DNA from: Nitrospira sp. | GTDB taxonomy: Bacteria > Nitrospirota > Nitrospiria > Nitrospirales > Nitrospiraceae | Reading direction: 5' to 3' | Length of the DNA stretch: 64,000 nt | NCBI GenBank assembly: GCA_030692565.1 | Contig: JAUYAO010000058.1 | Location: 1 to 64,000 of the forward strand | Shown: positions 3,598 through 45,675 of the stretch, in pieces | Layout of the letters: every line of letters starts with the position of its first letter | Numbering within the stretch: position 1 is the stretch's first letter | Notes under the pieces: model-generated | The model's database searches: none | Seen by the model: the letters and a program-made list of their open reading frames with translations, nothing else | What the model was told of the DNA's origin: nothing | Made by a program: the position numbers and the translations under genes

Positions 3598-5067
3598 TTA
3601 CTTACAGAGAAAATGATGATACTCAATCGGGCTGGGAGGCGCAGTGAGAGCCACGTTCAGCGTATCGGGATCGTACCCGACAGCTTCGAGATCTCGTGAC
3701 GTCGCGGATAATTCCTCCTCGGTCAGGTAGGCCACCGTGTCCGGCACCCCCGTGCGCTTGAGCGAGAGCACCATGCCGTTCAACGTTTCCCGCTCTTCCA
3801 TCGGCATGTTCTTCTGCAGCGGAAACTCCAGCATACGGCTGTAGGGACTTTCGTAGGCCTCGTTCAACGCCTTGATGGTTTTGAGCACCAGGCGATCCTG
3901 CTCCCACGCTTGCATCTTCGGTCCGGCCGACGGATGGGTCGCGAGCAGGTCCATGAGCGTAATGACATTCGTATTCAACGACCGCCCGACGAATTCCCGC
4001 TGCGGCTCAATGGCGATTCCGCCCAGCCCCAGATGTTTCGCGATTGCCTCGACCAAGGCGAAGTTAATCATGAAACTGTACTGCCCGCCGAACTGGCCAT
4101 AGCAGGGCTTGTCCGGATCGTTGAGCACTTGCATATCCGCCGTGCCGGCATCGAAGGCGCTGAAGCCGACCGCGCCGGGAGCCAGCAACCGCTTGGCCTC
4201 TTTCAATGTCGCAAAGGCCCCCAGGTTGATTGGAACGAGCACTTGCTCATCAATCGTCTTCAGAAATTCGGTGATCGTCTTGCGGTACGGAACATCTTTC
4301 CACTCCACCTTCCGGTATTCCTTCTCCCAGACCAGGTCGTCGAGGAAGGGAGGAAAGGTCTTGAGCGTCTCGATGTCTTTGCCCTCGAAAGCCCGGACAA
4401 AGCCCGACCAATCCTGAATGGTGGCATGGAGCGATTCGCTGAGATTGGGACGGAGGAATTCCTCCTCGATCTCGCCGGCGTTCTTCGCCATGAGCTTGGT
4501 GGGAAGATCGTTCCACAATTCGTTGCAGATGATCCGATCGACCGATTGATCCGCGGCCCCGGACACATGATCGACGGTGGCCAGCTGAGCCTCGACGCGA
4601 TCTTTGTGCGGCGCGAGGCCCGGATGCGCCAGCGCACGATCCAGGACCGATTGCTCCCAATCCACCAGGACATACTTCACGCGAGGATAGACCTGCCCGG
4701 CTTTGTCGATCGTTTTCAGGTGGCTCAAGAAACAGGCGGCCAGATTGCCGTTCCCCGGTCCCCACTCGTGGATGACCAGGCTAGGGGCTAGGGGCAAGGG
4801 GCTAGGGGTCGGAGAATCTTCGCTCTTACCTCTAACCTCGCGCCCCTCGCCTCGCGCCTTATCCCGCTTCACAACCTTCTCGAAATAATCCGCGGCGAGC
4901 GCATGCGCCAACCGATAGTCTGCCGACGCGAAGGTTTGATAATAGGTCCGCAACTGGTCGCCTCGGAGGCGATAAAACAGCGTATTAAGATGGGCTTGCC
5001 ACTGATCCAGCGGCTTGTAGTCCCCGATCAACTGCGGCAATGCGTCGGCGTCTTGTAACGTGCTCAT
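3598..5067 (-). CDS. SAM-dependent methyltransferase, MidA/NDUFAF7-like
   Basis: A 489-residue protein that resembles class I SAM-dependent methyltransferases of the MidA/NDUFAF7 (DUF185) type. The SAM-binding glycine motif is at about residues 99-110 (HEWGPGNGNLAA) and an acidic strand end follows (YVLVDWEQS). The substrate is unknown; the mitochondrial relative methylates an arginine in a complex I subunit. Residues ~69-97 (RGEGREVRGKSEDSPTPSP...) are low-complexity and are encoded by the inserted heptamer element at 4778-4861. They sit immediately before the glycine motif, and the frame is kept. The gene stands alone between two palindrome-ended repeats. Confidence 0.7.
   Translation of the reverse strand: MSTLQDADALPQLIGDYKPLDQWQAHLNTLFYRLRGDQLRTYYQTFASADYRLAHALAADYFEKVVKRDKARGEGREVRGKSEDSPTPSPLPLAPSLVIHEWGPGNGNLAACFLSHLKTIDKAGQVYPRVKYVLVDWEQSVLDRALAHPGLAPHKDRVEAQLATVDHVSGAADQSVDRIICNELWNDLPTKLMAKNAGEIEEEFLRPNLSESLHATIQDWSGFVRAFEGKDIETLKTFPPFLDDLVWEKEYRKVEWKDVPYRKTITEFLKTIDEQVLVPINLGAFATLKEAKRLLAPGAVGFSAFDAGTADMQVLNDPDKPCYGQFGGQYSFMINFALVEAIAKHLGLGGIAIEPQREFVGRSLNTNVITLMDLLATHPSAGPKMQAWEQDRLVLKTIKALNEAYESPYSRMLEFPLQKNMPMEERETLNGMVLSLKRTGVPDTVAYLTEEELSATSRDLEAVGYDPDTLNVALTAPPSPIEYHHFLCK
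4778..4861. repeat. Heptamer-arm element G1 (GGGGC family) inside a gene
   Basis: Left arm 4778-4808 is repeated CTAGGGG/CAAGGGG units of 7 nt. Right arm 4826-4861 is inverted units of the YTCGCCT/CTAACCT type. It is an in-frame insertion in the MidA-like methyltransferase gene. The core includes CTTCGCTC, which is also present in the ybeY copy G2. Confidence 0.75.
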
Positions 5068-10770: not shown

Positions 10771-12528
10771 TGCATCCTGCTGGCCCTCTGCGGCATCCTG
10801 TTCTTTTGGAATCTGGGCGCCCTTGGCCTGACCGATCGCGACGAAGGCCGCAACGCCGAAGCCGGTCGAGAGATGCTCGAAACCGGCGACTGGATGAGCC
10901 CCACTTTCAACTACGAACCCCGCTATGCGAAGCCGGTGCTGGTCTACTGGCTGATGGGCGCCTCCTACAAGACATTCGGCGTCAGCGAATTCGCCGCGCG
11001 ATTCCCGTCGGCGCTCTTCGGACTCGGCCTGGTGCTGATGCTCTACCTGTTTCTCGCGCGCCTGCGCGACGCGAATACGGGGCTGCTTGGTGCGCTGATG
11101 CTGGCGCTCAATCTCCAGATGATCGGGCTGAACCGCATGGCCCTGACCGACAGCGTGTTGATCTTTTTCACCACGCTCTCGCTCTTCGCCTTCTGGCTGG
11201 GATTTCAGACCACGCGCGAGCGACGCCCCTGGATGTGGGTCTGCTATGCGGCCATGGGCATCGCCACGCTGGCGAAGGGACCGGTAGGGTTCCTGGTTCC
11301 TTTGATCGTGGTCGCGCTCTACCTGTCTCTCACGAAACAGTGGCGGCCCTTCTGGCAGGAGGGGCGCCCGCTCGCAGGCACGGCGCTGACGGTCCTGATC
11401 GCGCTGCCCTGGTACGCAGGCATGTGGTGGCTTCACGGCAGCGAGTACACGGCCTCGGCGCAAGCCAACACCGTCGGGCGCTTTCTCAAGCCCATGGAAG
11501 GGCACAGCTTCGGATTCTTGTTCTACATTCCGGTGTTGCTCCTCGGATTTTTCCCCTGGAGCGGCTGGCTGCTCTTTGCCTGGCCACAGACCTACAAGAG
11601 CTGGCGCGCGGCACGCAAGATGAACGTGACAAGTGACACGTCACGCGTTATCGAATCTCCAGACCTGTCACCTGTCACCTGTCACTCGTCACATTCCGAT
11701 AGCCTGGACTGGTTCGCCGCTGCGTGGATCTTTGGAACGTTCGTCTTTTTCACGCTCTCGTCGACGAGACTGCCCCATTACATCGGCCCCCTCTTTCCCG
11801 CCGCCGCGATCCTGACGGCTTCTTATTGGGCACGCTGCGTACGGGAACCCTCGACCAGAGGCGCCAATGCCTCCGTTCACCTGGTCATGTGGCTGGGGTT
11901 TATCCTGGCGGGAGCCATGGCCTGCCTGCCCTGGATCTACGACACGATGCTGGCGAGTAAGCTCACGAAGGAATATCCGTTAGCCACCCAGCTCTCTCTG
12001 GGCCACGGGCCCTATATCGCCGCGACGGTCCTGCTGGTGGGGATGGGCTTGGTGGGGTTGTTCGGCCTGTCGGACACCAGACGCAATGCCGCCTTCTGGG
12101 CAGCCAGCGGATCGCTGTTCGGCGTGGTCCTCGTGCTGATGATTTTCATCCTGCCCGCGGCGAATCGATTTTTCGTCGCGCCGCAGCAAGAGCTGGCCTA
12201 TGCCGCCGGATTGAACCTGAAGCCGGACGAACAACTGATCGCCTATGGGGCGACAAGACCTTCGACAGCGTTTTATGCCAGACGAAAAGTGCTCTTTGTG
12301 GGAGCGGGTGAAGAAGAGAAACTCCGCACGGCCCTGAGCCAGCCGGGCCGCTCGATGATTCTGCTGCCGGAATCGTTTGTGGGCAAACTGCCGGGGGATC
12401 TCAAGAATTATCAGCCGATCTTGAAGCGCTACGGCTATCTGCTCTTAGCCCGTGAGCCGATGGTAAACATTCCAGAGGGACTGCTCCCGCCTCCACCGGC
12501 CCTCGAACCCAAGATCTTCGGTCACTAA
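10693..12528 (+). CDS. ArnT-like family 39 glycosyltransferase
   Basis: A 611-residue polytopic membrane enzyme of the PMT/ArnT type, which transfers a sugar from a polyprenyl-phosphate donor to lipid A or protein in the periplasm. The first periplasmic loop has the catalytic acidic motif in LGLTDRDEGRNAEAGREM, followed by SPTFNYEPRYAKPVLVYWL. About a dozen hydrophobic helices follow, with a C-terminal periplasmic domain of ~100 residues. The GTG at 10693 overlaps the preceding stop (GTGA); ATG 10708 is the alternative. Residues ~312-334 (VTSDTSRVIESPDLSPVTCH...) are encoded by heptamer element E6, inserted in frame in a loop. It is the last gene of the operon. Confidence 0.88.
   Translation: MTSETMRQADAPAPSAGNASLVARHLCILLALCGILFFWNLGALGLTDRDEGRNAEAGREMLETGDWMSPTFNYEPRYAKPVLVYWLMGASYKTFGVSEFAARFPSALFGLGLVLMLYLFLARLRDANTGLLGALMLALNLQMIGLNRMALTDSVLIFFTTLSLFAFWLGFQTTRERRPWMWVCYAAMGIATLAKGPVGFLVPLIVVALYLSLTKQWRPFWQEGRPLAGTALTVLIALPWYAGMWWLHGSEYTASAQANTVGRFLKPMEGHSFGFLFYIPVLLLGFFPWSGWLLFAWPQTYKSWRAARKMNVTSDTSRVIESPDLSPVTCHSSHSDSLDWFAAAWIFGTFVFFTLSSTRLPHYIGPLFPAAAILTASYWARCVREPSTRGANASVHLVMWLGFILAGAMACLPWIYDTMLASKLTKEYPLATQLSLGHGPYIAATVLLVGMGLVGLFGLSDTRRNAAFWAASGSLFGVVLVLMIFILPAANRFFVAPQQELAYAAGLNLKPDEQLIAYGATRPSTAFYARRKVLFVGAGEEEKLRTALSQPGRSMILLPESFVGKLPGDLKNYQPILKRYGYLLLAREPMVNIPEGLLPPPPALEPKIFGH
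11626..11692. repeat. Heptamer-arm element E6 (TGAC family) inside a gene
   Basis: Left arm GTGACAA, GTGACAC (11626-11640) faces inverted units CCTGTCA, CCTGTCA, CCTGTCA, CTCGTCA (11664-11692). The insertion keeps the reading frame of the ArnT-like gene. Confidence 0.75.
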
Positions 12529-12568: not shown

Positions 12569-13696
12569 TTAGACCAATGGGAGAACGCCTCGAAGCGCCA
12601 CGAGGATGACCAGACTCAGCAGAACCGCACCCGCCAACTCACAGTCTCTGACCACAGGAACCCAGCAGGGTTCTTCCACGACATTCTCGGCCTGCTCTCC
12701 ACGAAACCAGAGCGCCACGCAGAGCAACCCGGTTGACGCCATGACAATTGGCGCCGTGGACATCACCGATAGCCCGATGGCCGTCGCCAGCATCGGGCCT
12801 TGTGCGGATCTCGTGATAGCGGCTACTTGACTCGACCATCGAGCGCGAATGCAACTCACGACGCCGACGACCACCAACAAGGCGCCAGCCCCGGTGAGAA
12901 TGAGGCCTTCCCGTCCGGCCTCGACCGGAACCGCTAATGCCCAAAAGAGAGCAAAGCCCCACACCGTTCCGATGGCGGCGTAATATAACGCGGACTCGGC
13001 CGACCGGAACCAGTCCTTCCAAGGATTCACGGCCACCATCCCGCTCACCGTTCCCAACACCCATCCGCCGAACACGTCGCTGGGGAAATGCGATCCGCGC
13101 AACACACGGCTGAGCGCGACGAATGCTGCCATGCCGATGAATATCGCCGCCAACAACGGAAAGCGGCGGCTCAGGACAACCGCGAGCGCAAAGGTCGCGG
13201 TCGTATGGCCGGACGGAAAGGAATCGAATCCGGAAGCCAGCGACGGCGCGATCGACCACTCGCCCGATGCAGAGAATTTCGGCCGCGGCCGGCCGACGAG
13301 ATGTTTGACCGTATGGACAAGCACCGTGGCCAGTCCGTGCGCCCACAGAGTTTGGATGCCGGTCGCGATGCCGCGCGAAGCCGGCAGCAGCCAGCCGACG
13401 GCCAGCAGGATCGCGCTGACGATCAGTAACTGCCGCCCGTCGCCCATCCAGTTCCCGGCGTGACTCACGAACGCCATCCAGGGAATCGTCAACGTCCCGC
13501 CGCCTTCCGGCGTCGTGATCGTGCGCAGATAGCGCGCCGTCGGACCATCGAGTTGACGCAGGCCCCAAAAGACACAGGCCAGGGCGACTAATAGACAGGC
13601 CAGGGCCGCGAAGCGTGCCCAGTGATGGGTGACGCGTGACGCGTGATGAGCGGAATGCACAGACACGGTGTCTTGCCTCTCTTCCCCACTCGTCAC
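12569..13696 (-). CDS. PAP2-family phosphatase, membrane bound
   Basis: A 375-residue integral membrane phosphatase, probably acting on undecaprenyl diphosphate or another lipid phosphate in the periplasm. All three PAP2 motifs are present: KHLVGRPRP, PSGHTT, and SRVLRGSHFPSDVFGG. There are several hydrophobic helices before and after, and an unusual C-terminal extension of ~130 residues with about four more. The N-terminal 25 residues (MTSGEERQDTVSVHSAHHAS...) are encoded by heptamer element E7, so the true start is uncertain; GTG 13696 is the longest option. It converges on the ArnT-like gene, which fits a shared role in lipid-carrier metabolism. Confidence 0.85.
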   Translation of the reverse strand: MTSGEERQDTVSVHSAHHASRVTHHWARFAALACLLVALACVFWGLRQLDGPTARYLRTITTPEGGGTLTIPWMAFVSHAGNWMGDGRQLLIVSAILLAVGWLLPASRGIATGIQTLWAHGLATVLVHTVKHLVGRPRPKFSASGEWSIAPSLASGFDSFPSGHTTATFALAVVLSRRFPLLAAIFIGMAAFVALSRVLRGSHFPSDVFGGWVLGTVSGMVAVNPWKDWFRSAESALYYAAIGTVWGFALFWALAVPVEAGREGLILTGAGALLVVVGVVSCIRARWSSQVAAITRSAQGPMLATAIGLSVMSTAPIVMASTGLLCVALWFRGEQAENVVEEPCWVPVVRDCELAGAVLLSLVILVALRGVLPLV

Positions 13697-13718
13697 ACGT
13701 CACCTGTCACTCGTCACC
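13622..13718. repeat. Heptamer-arm element E7 (TGAC family)
   Basis: Left arm 13622-13650 (GTGATGG, GTGACGC, GTGACGC, GTGATGA) and inverted right arm 13688-13718 (CTCGTCA, CACGTCA, CCTGTCA, CTCGTCA) enclose a 37-nt core. It covers the start of the PAP2 gene and ends 9 bp from the TolB-like gene's stop codon. Confidence 0.78.
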
Positions 13719-17974: not shown

Positions 17975-18910
17975 TTATGACCGAGCGGCCGGTTGGCCGA
18001 ATAAGGCGGCAATGAAGGCTTCCTGATTGAAATCCTGCAGGTCTTCGACCGCCTCTCCCACACCGATCAAACGGACAGGCAGCTTCAGCTCATCGGCGAT
18101 GGCCACCACAATCCCGCCGCGCGCCGTCCCATCGAGCTTGGTGAGCGCCAACCCGGTGACGCCGACGACGTCCTTGAACTGCCGCGCTTGCGCCAACGCG
18201 TTCTGTCCGACCGTCGCATCGAGCACCAGGAGAATTTCATGCGGCGCTCCCGGCAGCGCCTGACCGATCACCCGAACGATCTTCCGCAATTCCTCCATCA
18301 GATTCGACTTCGTATGCAACCGCCCGGCCGTATCGATGAGCACCACATCGACCGCGCGCGCCTTGGCCGCCACAATGCCGTCGAACGCGACGGCCGCCGG
18401 ATCCGCGCCGTGGCGATGCCGGATCACATCCACGCCGACACGATCGGCCCACACTTGCAGCTGATCAATTGCCGCCGCGCGAAAGGTATCGCCGGCCACG
18501 AGCAGAGGGCGACGACCACCCTGCGCCAACCGTTGCGCCATCTTGGCGATGGTCGTCGTTTTCCCGACGCCATTCACCCCGACCATCAGGACCACAAAGG
18601 GCTTCGGCCCCTTCTCGATCAGCTGTTCCAGCGACGGCCCTTGCACGGGCGCCAAGACACCGTACAGGGTACGGCTCAAGACATTCTGCAACGCCTCCGA
18701 ATTGGCCGCATCCGCTCCTCTGGCATGTTCGCGCACATGCGTCATCAATCGATCGACTACCCGCACACCCAAGTCTGCCGTGAGCAACGCGGCCTCCAGC
18801 TCTTCGAGCATCGCAGGATCGGGCGTGCGCCCCAAGACGCGATCCAGTGATTGCCGAACGACCTGCCGCGTCTTGCTGAGGCCGTCGCTCAGCCGCTGAA
18901 ACCATCCCAT
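17975..18910 (-). CDS. ftsY: Signal recognition particle receptor FtsY
   Basis: A 311-residue SRP-type GTPase that docks ribosome-SRP complexes at the inner membrane. An N-domain helical bundle (residues 1-95) is followed by the G domain with P-loop GVNGVGKTTT (111-120), DTAGR, and TKLDGTARGG. It lacks the long acidic A-domain seen in E. coli and starts with an amphipathic helix (MGWFQRLSDGLSK) likely to bind membrane. It follows phoH and ybeY on the same strand, with the half-element E8 in the 4-bp-to-35-bp space around the ybeY stop. Confidence 0.95.
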   Translation of the reverse strand: MGWFQRLSDGLSKTRQVVRQSLDRVLGRTPDPAMLEELEAALLTADLGVRVVDRLMTHVREHARGADAANSEALQNVLSRTLYGVLAPVQGPSLEQLIEKGPKPFVVLMVGVNGVGKTTTIAKMAQRLAQGGRRPLLVAGDTFRAAAIDQLQVWADRVGVDVIRHRHGADPAAVAFDGIVAAKARAVDVVLIDTAGRLHTKSNLMEELRKIVRVIGQALPGAPHEILLVLDATVGQNALAQARQFKDVVGVTGLALTKLDGTARGGIVVAIADELKLPVRLIGVGEAVEDLQDFNQEAFIAALFGQPAARS

Positions 18911-18914
18911 CTGT

Positions 18915-19493
18915 TCACCCGTGATGTGTGATGAGTGATCCGTGACGAGGATCCATCAGGAGTCTTGGTAACGGCGTCAGGGATCGCATGATCGCCTGCT
19001 CCCTTCGCCGCATGCGGCGGGCTTCCAGCTCGTTCCGCTCATGATCGTAGCCGCAGAGGTGCAAGATACCATGAATCAGCAAGACCGCGAGCTCCTCGTC
19101 GAGCGACCGGCCTCCCTGCCGCGCCTGACGCGTCGCGGTCGGGATTGAGATCACCACGTCGCCAAGCAGTTCGGGCGCGGGGCTGGGGGCGAAAGGAAGG
19201 AGTCTCTTTCGCTTCGCTCGTGGCCCCTTGCCTCTTGCCCCTTGCCTCTCGCCTCTCGCCCCTTGCCCCTTGCCCACGTCAGCATCGCGCATGGCAAACG
19301 CCAGAACGTCGGTAGTGCGATCCTTCTTCCGATACTCGCGGTTCAACCGACGCATCCGCCCATCGGCCACCAGATCAATACTAAGTTCTGACTGCTTTTC
19401 CCCGACCGCGACGAGCACACGCTCTGCCAGACGCCTCAGGGCCGCCTGGCGTACCCTCACACGAGTGAGACGCTCACGTACATAGACAGCCAT
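18915..19493 (-). CDS. ybeY: Endoribonuclease YbeY with in-frame repeat insertion
   Basis: A 192-residue metal-dependent RNase for 16S rRNA 3'-end maturation and ribosome quality control. The zinc motif HGILHLCGYDH (141-151) is intact, and TDVLAFAMRD (61-70) and LLGDVVISIPTA (109-120) are the conserved strands. Between them, residues ~71-107 (GKGQGARGERQGARGKGPRAK...) are an arginine/glycine-rich insert absent from ordinary YbeY, encoded by heptamer element G2. It lies between two core strands where homologs have a short loop. The ATG directly follows the phoH TAA with no gap. Confidence 0.92.
   Translation of the reverse strand: MAVYVRERLTRVRVRQAALRRLAERVLVAVGEKQSELSIDLVADGRMRRLNREYRKKDRTTDVLAFAMRDADVGKGQGARGERQGARGKGPRAKRKRLLPFAPSPAPELLGDVVISIPTATRQARQGGRSLDEELAVLLIHGILHLCGYDHERNELEARRMRRREQAIMRSLTPLPRLLMDPRHGSLITHHG
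18917..18949. repeat. Heptamer half-element E8 (TGAC family)
   Basis: A single arm of units GTGATGT, GTGATGA, GTGATCC, GTGACGA. It encodes the last residues of YbeY (RHGSLITHHG) and provides the upstream region of ftsY. No opposite arm is seen. Confidence 0.6.
19174..19275. repeat. Heptamer-arm element G2 (GGGGC family) inside ybeY
   Basis: Right arm 19224-19275 is an almost pure array of 7-nt units (CCTTGCC, TCTTGCC, CCTTGCC, TCTCGCC, TCTCGCC, CCTTGCC, CCTTGCC). The left arm 19174-19200 has inverted units of the GGGGCTG/GGGGCGA type. The core CTTTCGCTTCGCTCG shares CTTCGCTC with G1. Confidence 0.8.
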
Positions 19494-20558
19494 TTAGTGG
19501 GATTGACCCGAGGAGCCGCGGGGCGGCGAACCAGAGGAGGACCACTTGTTGGACCCGGAAGGAGACGATTGTGGTGCTGCCGGCCCCTTGGATAGCCTGG
19601 GATCACCACCGGTTGCAGACTGATGTCGATCGTAGGCTCTGACGATGTCCTGGACCAGCCGATGACGGACCACATCTTTCTCATCGAAATACACGAAGGC
19701 AATCCCTTCGATATCGCGCAAGATTTCCTTCACTTCGATAAGACCGGACACCCGCTCAGACGGCAGATCGATCTGCGTGATATCTCCGGTCACGACCACC
19801 TTTGAATGAAATCCTAATCTGGTGAGAAACATTTTCATCTGTTCCGCTGTGGCATTCTGCGCTTCGTCCAAAATGACGAACGAATCATTCAAGGTGCGCC
19901 CGCGCATGAATGCCAACGGCGCGATCTCGATATCCCCGCGTTCAATCATGCGATTGGCCCGCTCCATATCCATCATGTCAAACAACGCATCGTACAGCGG
20001 GCGCAGATACGGATTCACCTTTGCGTACATATCGCCGGGGAGAAAGCCGAGCTTCTCGCCGGCCTCGACCGCAGGCCGCGCCAGAATGATGCGACTCACT
20101 TCCTTCTTCATCAACGCACTGACCGCCATCGCCATCGCCAGATAGGTCTTGCCCGTCCCGGCAGGCCCGATCGCAATCACAATGTCGTGCGTCTCAATCG
20201 CTTCAATGTAGGATTTCTGCGTGGGAGATTTCGGGCCGACGAACCGCTTCTTCGTGACTATCGTCGTGGCGTTGGTCAGCACCTCTTTAACGGAGGCATC
20301 CGGCGTCTGGCGCAGCGCGGTCAGCGCATGCGTCACATCATCGGCTTGAAGCACCAGTCCATCGTTGGTGAGATTCGCGAGTTCGAAGAGGATCCGTTCG
20401 GCTTGGCGAGTCGCGTCAGGAAGACCGTCGAGGGTGACTTCTTCACCGCGCGCGGACAGCCGCACGCCGAGATCGTCCTCAATCAGTTTGAGGTGCCGGT
20501 CGTGGTGACCGAAGAGGGCGGCAGTGTCCGTGCCTTCTCGTAGTTTTAGTTTACGCAC
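19494..20558 (-). CDS. phoH: PhoH-like ATPase
   Basis: A 354-residue PhoH-type P-loop ATPase, usually linked to RNA metabolism and regularly beside ybeY. An N-terminal KH-like region (1-90) precedes Walker A GPAGTGKTY (131-139) and Walker B VILDEAQNAT. The conserved ARPAVEAGEKLGFLPGDM and TGDITQIDLP segments are present. The last ~35 residues (RLSKGPAAPQSSPSGSNKWS...) are Ser/Gly/Pro-rich and not part of the family core. Translation starts at GTG 20558, with GGAGGGAG about 14 nt upstream. Confidence 0.93.
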   Translation of the reverse strand: MRKLKLREGTDTAALFGHHDRHLKLIEDDLGVRLSARGEEVTLDGLPDATRQAERILFELANLTNDGLVLQADDVTHALTALRQTPDASVKEVLTNATTIVTKKRFVGPKSPTQKSYIEAIETHDIVIAIGPAGTGKTYLAMAMAVSALMKKEVSRIILARPAVEAGEKLGFLPGDMYAKVNPYLRPLYDALFDMMDMERANRMIERGDIEIAPLAFMRGRTLNDSFVILDEAQNATAEQMKMFLTRLGFHSKVVVTGDITQIDLPSERVSGLIEVKEILRDIEGIAFVYFDEKDVVRHRLVQDIVRAYDRHQSATGGDPRLSKGPAAPQSSPSGSNKWSSSGSPPRGSSGQSH

Positions 20559-44194: not shown

Positions 44195-45436
44195 TTACTT
44201 GTTCGGCCGGTCTCCTGGTGGAACCCGATCAAGGCCAAATGCCGTATGCAGTGAACGCATGGCCAATTCCAAATACTTCTCGTCGATGACGCAGGAGATT
44301 TTGATCTCCGACGTGCTGATCATCATGATGTTGACCCCTTCACGGGATAACACCTCGAACATCTTCGCCGCGACACCTGAATGCGAGCGCATACCCACGC
44401 CGATGAGTGAGACCTTGGCAATCGCTTCGGTAATCGCCACACTTCTGGCCCCGACATCTTTGGCCACACCTTGGAGCAGCGGAGTGGCAGCGCGCAAATC
44501 CGCCCGAGGAACGGTGAACGACAAGTCCGTCAACGCATCCTGGCTGACATTCTGAATGATCATGTCGACGTTGATGTTGGCCTGGGCGACGGGCCCGAAA
44601 ATTTTTGCCGCGATGCCGGGCTTGTCGGGCACACCGACCATCGTGATTTTTGCCTGGTTCCGGTCTCCCGTAACTCCCGCCACCGCCACCGCTTCCATGT
44701 CCGCATCTTCACGTGTCACGAGAGTCCCCTTTCCTTCTTTAAAGCTCGAGTTCACCTCAACCGGGACATTGAACTTCGCGGCGAACTCCACCGATCTGGC
44801 CTGCAGCACCTTCGCGCCGAGGCTGGCCATTTCCAACATTTCTTCATATGAAATCTTATCGATCCGCCGCGCCGCAGGCACCACATTGGGATCCGAGGTG
44901 TAGACCCCGTCCACATCGGTAAAGATGATGCACCGATCGGCTTTCAACGCCGCAGCCAAGGCCACCGCAGACAGATCAGACCCGCCACGCCCCAGCGTTG
45001 TGACATCCGACTGTTCATTGATGCCCTGGAACCCCGCCACCACGGGAATGATGCCTTTTGCCAACGCCTCGCGAAGCCGGTCGGCGGAGACCCGCGCAAT
45101 CCGGGCCTTGGTGTGGGCGCTGTCGGTGACAATGCCGACTTGCCGTCCGGTGTAGGACCGGGCATTCAATCCGCGACCACGAAGATCCATCGCCAAGAGC
45201 GCCACGGTCACACGCTCCCCCGTGGACAACAGCATGTCCATCTCACGGTCATCGGGCGTAGCGGCCGCCTCGTGCGCAAGCTTGATCAATCGATCCGTCT
45301 CGCCGCTCATCGCAGACAACACGACGACCACCTGGTCTCCGGCACGATGCGACTGCGCGACCCGCTCTGCGACCCGATGGATCCGTTCGATCGTGCCGAC
45401 CGAGGTCCCGCCGTATTTCTGAACAATCAACGCCAC
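44195..45436 (-). CDS. lysC: Aspartate kinase
   Basis: A 413-residue monofunctional aspartokinase, the first step of threonine, lysine and methionine synthesis. GTG 45436 gives the usual start [14 protein letters not shown] and has AAAGGGTGAG just upstream; a TTG at 45454 is less likely. The kinase domain includes [19 protein letters not shown] and [12 protein letters not shown]. Two ACT domains follow ([32 protein letters not shown]) for feedback control. Its 5' end is partly duplicated upstream (45521-45602). Confidence 0.95.
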
Positions 45437-45675
45437 CGACTCACCCTTTGGCAAACAGCTGAATTACAAACTGACTGGTAGCACGAACCGGCGCCTGAGA
45501 GGCCTGCGCATCAGTCTCGGTGATCCGATGAATTCGTTCGATCATCCCGACCAATATCCCGTCACATTTCTGACCGATCAACGCCACCGACTCACCCTTT
45601 GGCAAACAGCTTGATCACAAACTTACTGGCGTCACGGACCGGCGCCTTGGAGGCTTGCGCATCCATCTCGGTAAA
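45377..45675. repeat. Decayed tandem duplication at the lysC/apgM junction
   Basis: A segment of about 150 bp spanning the 5' end of lysC and the 3' end of the apgM-like gene occurs twice: roughly 45377-45526 and 45521-45675. Shared blocks include ACGCCACCGACTCACCCTTT and GGCAAACAGCT (both copies), and GTTCGATCNTNCCGACC. The outer halves are the working gene ends; the inner halves (45455-45600) have diverged and contain stops. Confidence 0.85.

Follow-up and report, generated by a model that had tools for sequence, protein, structure and literature searches.

How does a tandem repeat come to lie in frame inside the gene of a core RNase, and is the peptide that it encodes used by the protein or simply tolerated? 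The window, a stretch of 64,000 nucleotides from a Nitrospira genome, raises this question at ybeY, which has phoH as its upstream neighbour (19494-20558) and an SRP-type GTPase gene, ftsY-like, downstream (17975-18910). We consider it probable, at roughly 80%, that the insert is a dispersed Nitrospira hairpin repeat that became fixed in frame at a loop of YbeY, spread by recombination and is tolerated there. The gene and its insert are as follows.

18915-19493, minus strand: ybeY, 192 aa, rRNA maturation endoribonuclease (Pfam PF02130, 5e-36; TIGR00043, 3.6e-37)
19173-19275, minus strand: heptamer-array hairpin, in frame in the β3-β4 loop, net gain of 31 aa (alignments and predicted fold)

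The reading frame is open along the full length of the gene, and a single match to the family in the whole genome makes this the sole copy. Both the domain match and the metal motif of the YbeY family are present in the protein: HGILHLCGYDH (HxxxHxxxxxH) is intact downstream of the insert, as the first-pass annotation had stated, with histidines that are invariant in a 30-sequence alignment, and the strands flanking the insert are unchanged in the same alignment. The segment from TDVLAF to LLGDVVI measures 55 aa in the window compared with 24-30 aa in 76/80 named Nitrospira-type relatives, and it is no longer than 30 aa in all other same-genus genomes first examined. An in-frame insertion of repeat sequence, as had been proposed, is thereby confirmed; extra residues are present in the β3-β4 hairpin loop, but they amount to a net 31 aa over close relatives rather than the estimated 37 or so. 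They form an internal loop and not a tail, and the nearest genomes, instead of carrying an unrelated loop of equal length, have the short 24-aa form.

The insert is more than the simple 7-nt array first assigned to 19174-19275. Two heptamer arrays stand in inverted orientation to each other, (RGGCNNR)n–loop–(YNNGCCY)n; the tandem array proper is confined to 19223-19275, and the remainder is spacer and a degenerate inverted array.

19223-19275, minus strand: G-rich arm, encoding GKGQGARGERQGARGKG (Tandem Repeats Finder, pattern search, translation)
19194-19222, minus strand: hairpin spacer of about 29 nt, encoding approximately PRAKRKRLLPF (recognisable in the L179 and L247 inserts described below)
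19173-19193, minus strand: C-rich arm of degenerate inverted heptamers, encoding Pro-rich APSPAP (opposite-strand pattern match; pairs with the G-rich arm)
18921-18948, plus strand: second heptamer array, GTGATGA type (sequence; pLDDT <50 for residues 184-192)

By Tandem Repeats Finder, the G-rich arm holds 7.6 copies of a 7-mer; it reads GGGCAAG GGGCAAG GGGCGAG AGGCGAG AGGCAAG GGGCAAG AGGCAAG GGGC on the coding strand; the C-rich arm reads CGCCCCC AGCCCCG CGCCC on that strand and GGGCGCG GGGCTGG GGGCGAA on the opposite one. In the outer stem of the predicted fold, five positions of each heptamer are paired and two are not, and the folding energy of −52.9 kcal/mol versus −43.4 for shuffles (z −2.84) is only a moderate excess. 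The second array, with units GTGATGT GTGATGA GTGATCC GTGACGA, encodes most of the C-terminal tail of YbeY, ending SLITHHG, when read on the minus strand. The SRITHHE-type C-terminal tails of YbeY in L184, L206 and L221 are likewise encoded by CATCACG-type heptamers that adjoin the stop codon.

Repeats of this type are dispersed in the genome. Three successive RGGCNNR units are matched 29 times, compared with 2 matches for the reversed control pattern, and the corresponding counts are 119 versus 2 in G043 and 76 versus 0 in G111, although the distribution across the genus is patchy (22 in G101, 14 in G036, near background in most others). Most matches sit in inverted array pairs of 75-120 nt, and about 13 hairpins of this layout are found in the window's genome, the ybeY insert being one of them. 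Among short tandem repeats in 464 kb of this genome, including sampled stretches totalling 400 kb, a period of 7 clearly predominates; the lag-7 scan was relaxed because its strict version missed degenerate arrays. No second complete copy of the ybeY insert turned up in the genome: the heptamer part recurs at other sites and the spacer does not. The source of the insert would be one copy of this dispersed, hairpin-capable repeat, with inverted RGGCNNR arrays around a short spacer.

Three of the hairpins lie in frame in conserved genes: that in ybeY, one in a PF02636 methyltransferase gene of the window, and one on contig 50, in the gene of an Lhr-type helicase.

3598-5067, minus strand: predicted methyltransferase, 489 aa (PF02636 match)
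4778-4859, minus strand: hairpin of the RGGCNNR family, in frame in the methyltransferase gene

The methyltransferase hairpin is missing from relatives with a 96% identical protein (KRDKAKGTAATPLIVHEWGPG versus KRDKARGEGREVRGKSEDSPTPSPLPLAPSLVIHEWGPG), and the helicase copy contributes 32 residues where the alignment of relatives breaks, its matched halves lying only 9-30 nt apart in four of them; both copies are thus absent from close relatives at 90-96% protein identity. A second candidate insert of the helicase, at about 385-480 of L032 (SSILSPEGRGEGEGTSASS), is of the type that G/C-rich palindromes encode. The methyltransferase loop may, like that of YbeY, be a recurrent site, since it is occupied by ESRLTPHAS-like heptamer peptides in other species (L270-L272), and YbeY may therefore not be special among loop-bearing proteins. 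Further repeats were noted in passing: heptamers of another family (GTCACCT/GTCACTC type), arrayed at 11657-11698 and 13683-13717 of the window, a 151-bp unit in two tandem copies with 83% matching at 45374-45672, and, at 18946-19062 of L104, a third heptamer type (CGTCAAN ... NTGACGA) in an inverted pair with the layout of the RGGCNNR hairpins.

The design of the repeat accounts for how readily it can be translated. Because 7 equals 1 mod 3, the three frames of an array all encode one cyclic heptapeptide: by computation, each frame of (GGGCAAG)n gives GKGQGAR, and its complement gives LAPCPLP. The hairpin equals its reverse complement, so both strands read alike. Any in-frame copy of the inverted pair therefore yields a basic and then a Pro-rich stretch, as all three in-gene copies do. 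Stop-free units make up 46/64 of the RGGCNNR set on the G strand and 54/64 on the C strand, compared with 69% for all heptamers. Read-through would be easy for a repeat with these properties in both orientations, and changes in length by three units (21 nt, 7 aa) would preserve the frame, while stop content, such as the TAG in GGCTAGG units, would restrict which copies survive in genes.

Beyond the window, we observe homologous ybeY inserts in two other Nitrospira lineages, L179 (NEWR02000017.1, Nitrospira sp. CG24C) and L247 (VGXE01000012.1, isolate M_DeepCast_65m_mx_150, with the same sequence in genome G101), and a strain-specific origin, which the first-pass annotation had suggested checking by an alignment of relatives, was dropped on these grounds. 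Both have the spacer and array of the window's insert and are three heptamers shorter (21 nt, 7 aa). Their folds do not exceed those of shuffles (z 0.6 and 0.05), and they are thus arrays in which the hairpin has decayed or was never complete. In insert-free YbeY and PhoH trees, in which many forks are weak and the starred positions are local placements of L247 and, for PhoH, of the window, the three fall in different parts of the genus, each with nearest relatives that lack the insert.

Three independent landings of one element at a preferred site would explain why the three gene backgrounds are merely 55-64% identical and why the near relatives of each are free of the insert. We nevertheless regard this as unlikely: the spacer is common to all three inserts, whereas other copies in the window's genome do not have it, and L179 and L247 further share a left flank, GCGAGAC.TTCA.GCGGGC, and a right flank, GCCGCTCATCTC.TGCCGGA.ATGCTGGG. 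The inserts of these two are 85% identical over 84 nt compared with 55-60% for the remainder of ybeY, and on either side of its insert L247 is 88-91% identical to L203, which lacks one.

Recombination of an existing allele is the reading that we prefer, and within the window it would have involved more than the insert itself.

18915-19285, minus strand: 3' half of ybeY including the insert, a divergent tract probably imported by recombination (62% identity to nearest relative)

When compared to L170, the window is 90-94% identical in phoH and ftsY and 86% in the 5' part of ybeY, versus 62% from the insert to the stop codon. This tract is the most divergent of the region (z −14.5, against a minimum of −5.1 in 200 permutations), while L170 and L172 are 96% identical to each other across it. 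The best DNA matches to the window's 3' half reach 72-78%, and the donor would lie outside the compared set. That this half of the gene was imported together with the insert is probable, and the simplest account of all three alleles is that the insert moved between Nitrospira lineages by recombination, bringing the 3' half of ybeY with it in the window; many of the comparators are MAGs, which limits certainty at single loci. The L184/L221/L237 clade, in which the loop is short, also has heptamer-like residues there; they are suggestive and too short to support a claim.

The same loop carries other repeats across the phylum. G059, G068 and G065, which belong to another family of the order (f2), have GGGGACAG-type palindromes in the YbeY loop, and the loop sequence of G059 recurs as a dispersed repeat in G068 (23 matches, control 0). 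A phylum-wide sample of 60 YbeY genes, 58 of which could be parsed, was drawn from an E-value-ordered list, so that long loops are if anything under-represented; by the measure used for this sample, 18/58 loops have at least 20 aa, and 7/18 of these fold with z < −2 compared with 0/18 control segments of the same genes. The repeats in these loops and their neighbours include GGGGACAGAATTAAATTCTGTCCCC (L297, similar in L304), CCCTCTCCCCGCTGGGGAGAGGG types (L302, L308), heptamers in L340 (perfect: AGCGTTC x4 and AACTTTC x4) and L343, and, in L310, an array of 9-mers. A set of genes chosen for long matches, and biased by design, adds inverted heptamers, GGGAAST/ASTTCCC, in L284 and inverted octamers in L285 and L287. 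The CTTTCAA and GGGAAST families are less well shown as dispersed, since the reversed-pattern control says nothing about units as nearly symmetric as the former and the GGGAAST unit of G414 has only two other sites. Several long loops, for example those of L298, L348 and L349, have no repeat signal, and thus not every long loop is of repeat origin. The loop of L248 is 44 aa long and Arg-rich at the same place, unrelated to RGGCNNR and with strong hairpin potential (z −3.8).

Because the loop repeats of different Nitrospirota are unrelated, they are separate captures, and by sequence comparison the β3-β4 loop of YbeY is an apparent recurrent landing site for unrelated repeats in the phylum. A broader proposal is tentative, and we would not give it even odds: that the loop serves phylum-wide as a site of landing and exchange, at which unrelated inverted repeats are captured in frame and recombined between species, and, in addition, that inverted heptamer arrays form a distinct mobile or amplifying class of frame- and strand-independent coding DNA.

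The structure prediction bears on whether the peptide is tolerated or used. In an AlphaFold2 model built from the 30-sequence alignment, the YbeY core is intact, with helices and strands mostly above pLDDT 90, and its best matches among solved structures are the YbeY proteins 1oz9 (Foldseek E 1.1e-12), 7y7o and 1xm5. The insert lies between predicted strands 63-67 and 109-116, and residues 69-105, like the C-terminal 184-192, have pLDDT <50. According to its authors, the crystal structure of Staphylococcus aureus YbeY has a long, disordered β3-β4 loop (PMC9895993), which fits a tolerant site at the position of the window's insert. A copy fixed at the tip of this hairpin would add residues and spare the fold. 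With a single-copy gene and an intact core and motif, the model supports the part of the first-pass annotation that allowed for the insert being tolerated, most likely as a disordered loop.

The other possibility offered there is that the positive charge could affect RNA binding. An adaptive version of it, in which selection maintains a basic Arg/Gly/Lys loop because YbeY then binds rRNA more tightly, is in our judgment quite improbable. A GARGKG.R.KRK peptide is recognisable in three divergent lineages, and the insert has pN below pS (0.14 versus 0.21 between L179 and L247; 0.09 versus 0.22 between the window and L179 over a 45-nt part), which is compatible with weak selection on the peptide, although these values come from tiny counts of 3-9 changes. 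However, translating RGGCNNR gives basic residues in any frame, so the Arg/Gly/Lys content is explained without selection for charge, and peptides of the same type occur in two other, unrelated proteins. Positive charge is moreover unneeded as an explanation because unrelated repeats, often uncharged or Pro-rich, fill the loop in other Nitrospirota. Tolerance is thus the simpler reading, under which the peptide would be close to neutral. Simple repeats are error-prone and most of the relatives are metagenome bins, yet a sequencing or assembly artefact or a pseudogene is hardly credible given homologous inserts in two independent assemblies and a frame held across 31 net codons in a single ybeY copy with its motif intact.

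We regard the recurrence of loop captures across the phylum as the most interesting result. It suggests a route by which scattered repeats may enter a core protein, for which the 7-nt inverted-array design appears well suited, and the presence of unrelated repeats in one YbeY loop makes tolerance versus use testable through natural alleles. Literature searches outside subscription journals returned no prior description of the Nitrospira elements or of YbeY loop inserts; what is seen here in combination is a hairpin of heptamers that lies in frame in the gene of a core RNase, has probably passed between lineages and occupies a repeatedly used site.

Individual features of this combination are familiar from other systems. 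The closest precedent is that of the Rickettsia palindromic elements, which are about 150 bp long, dispersed, found in frame inside unrelated protein genes, and represented by several families per genus (PMC10969869). The likeness is claimed for the mode and not for membership by sequence: the Nitrospira element is also palindromic, dispersed (the 13 or so hairpins) and in frame in three unrelated genes. Unlike the Rickettsia elements, which as described encode a conserved, family-specific peptide, it consists of degenerate heptamer arrays that give the same peptide in every frame and a similar one on both strands, and its alleles differ in array length by three units. The GGGGACAG-type palindromes of other Nitrospirota resemble the window's insert in being genome-dispersed and in frame in the same YbeY loop, but they are short and near-perfect, lack a tandem unit and are unrelated in sequence. 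In comparison with MITEs, the Nitrospira element has inverted arms, and no target-site duplication is evident by eye between the methyltransferase insert and its empty relatives.

Heptamer repeats are over-represented in many bacteria, where they are mainly intergenic (PMC4692102, PMC4679880). The Nitrospira arrays share with the cyanobacterial STRR and with the heptamers of Xanthomonas, Nostoc and Beggiatoaceae a 7-nt tandem unit, dispersal, and a patchy distribution between related genomes, whereas they differ from intergenic direct arrays of the STRR type in forming inverted pairs, with three copies inside conserved genes. Finally, tandem repeats in the ORFs of Borgs produce disordered protein segments from units whose lengths are all divisible by three (PMC9879509); the ybeY insert likewise turns a tandem DNA repeat within an ORF into a predicted disordered segment, but with a 7-nt unit, such that the frame is kept by the total length.
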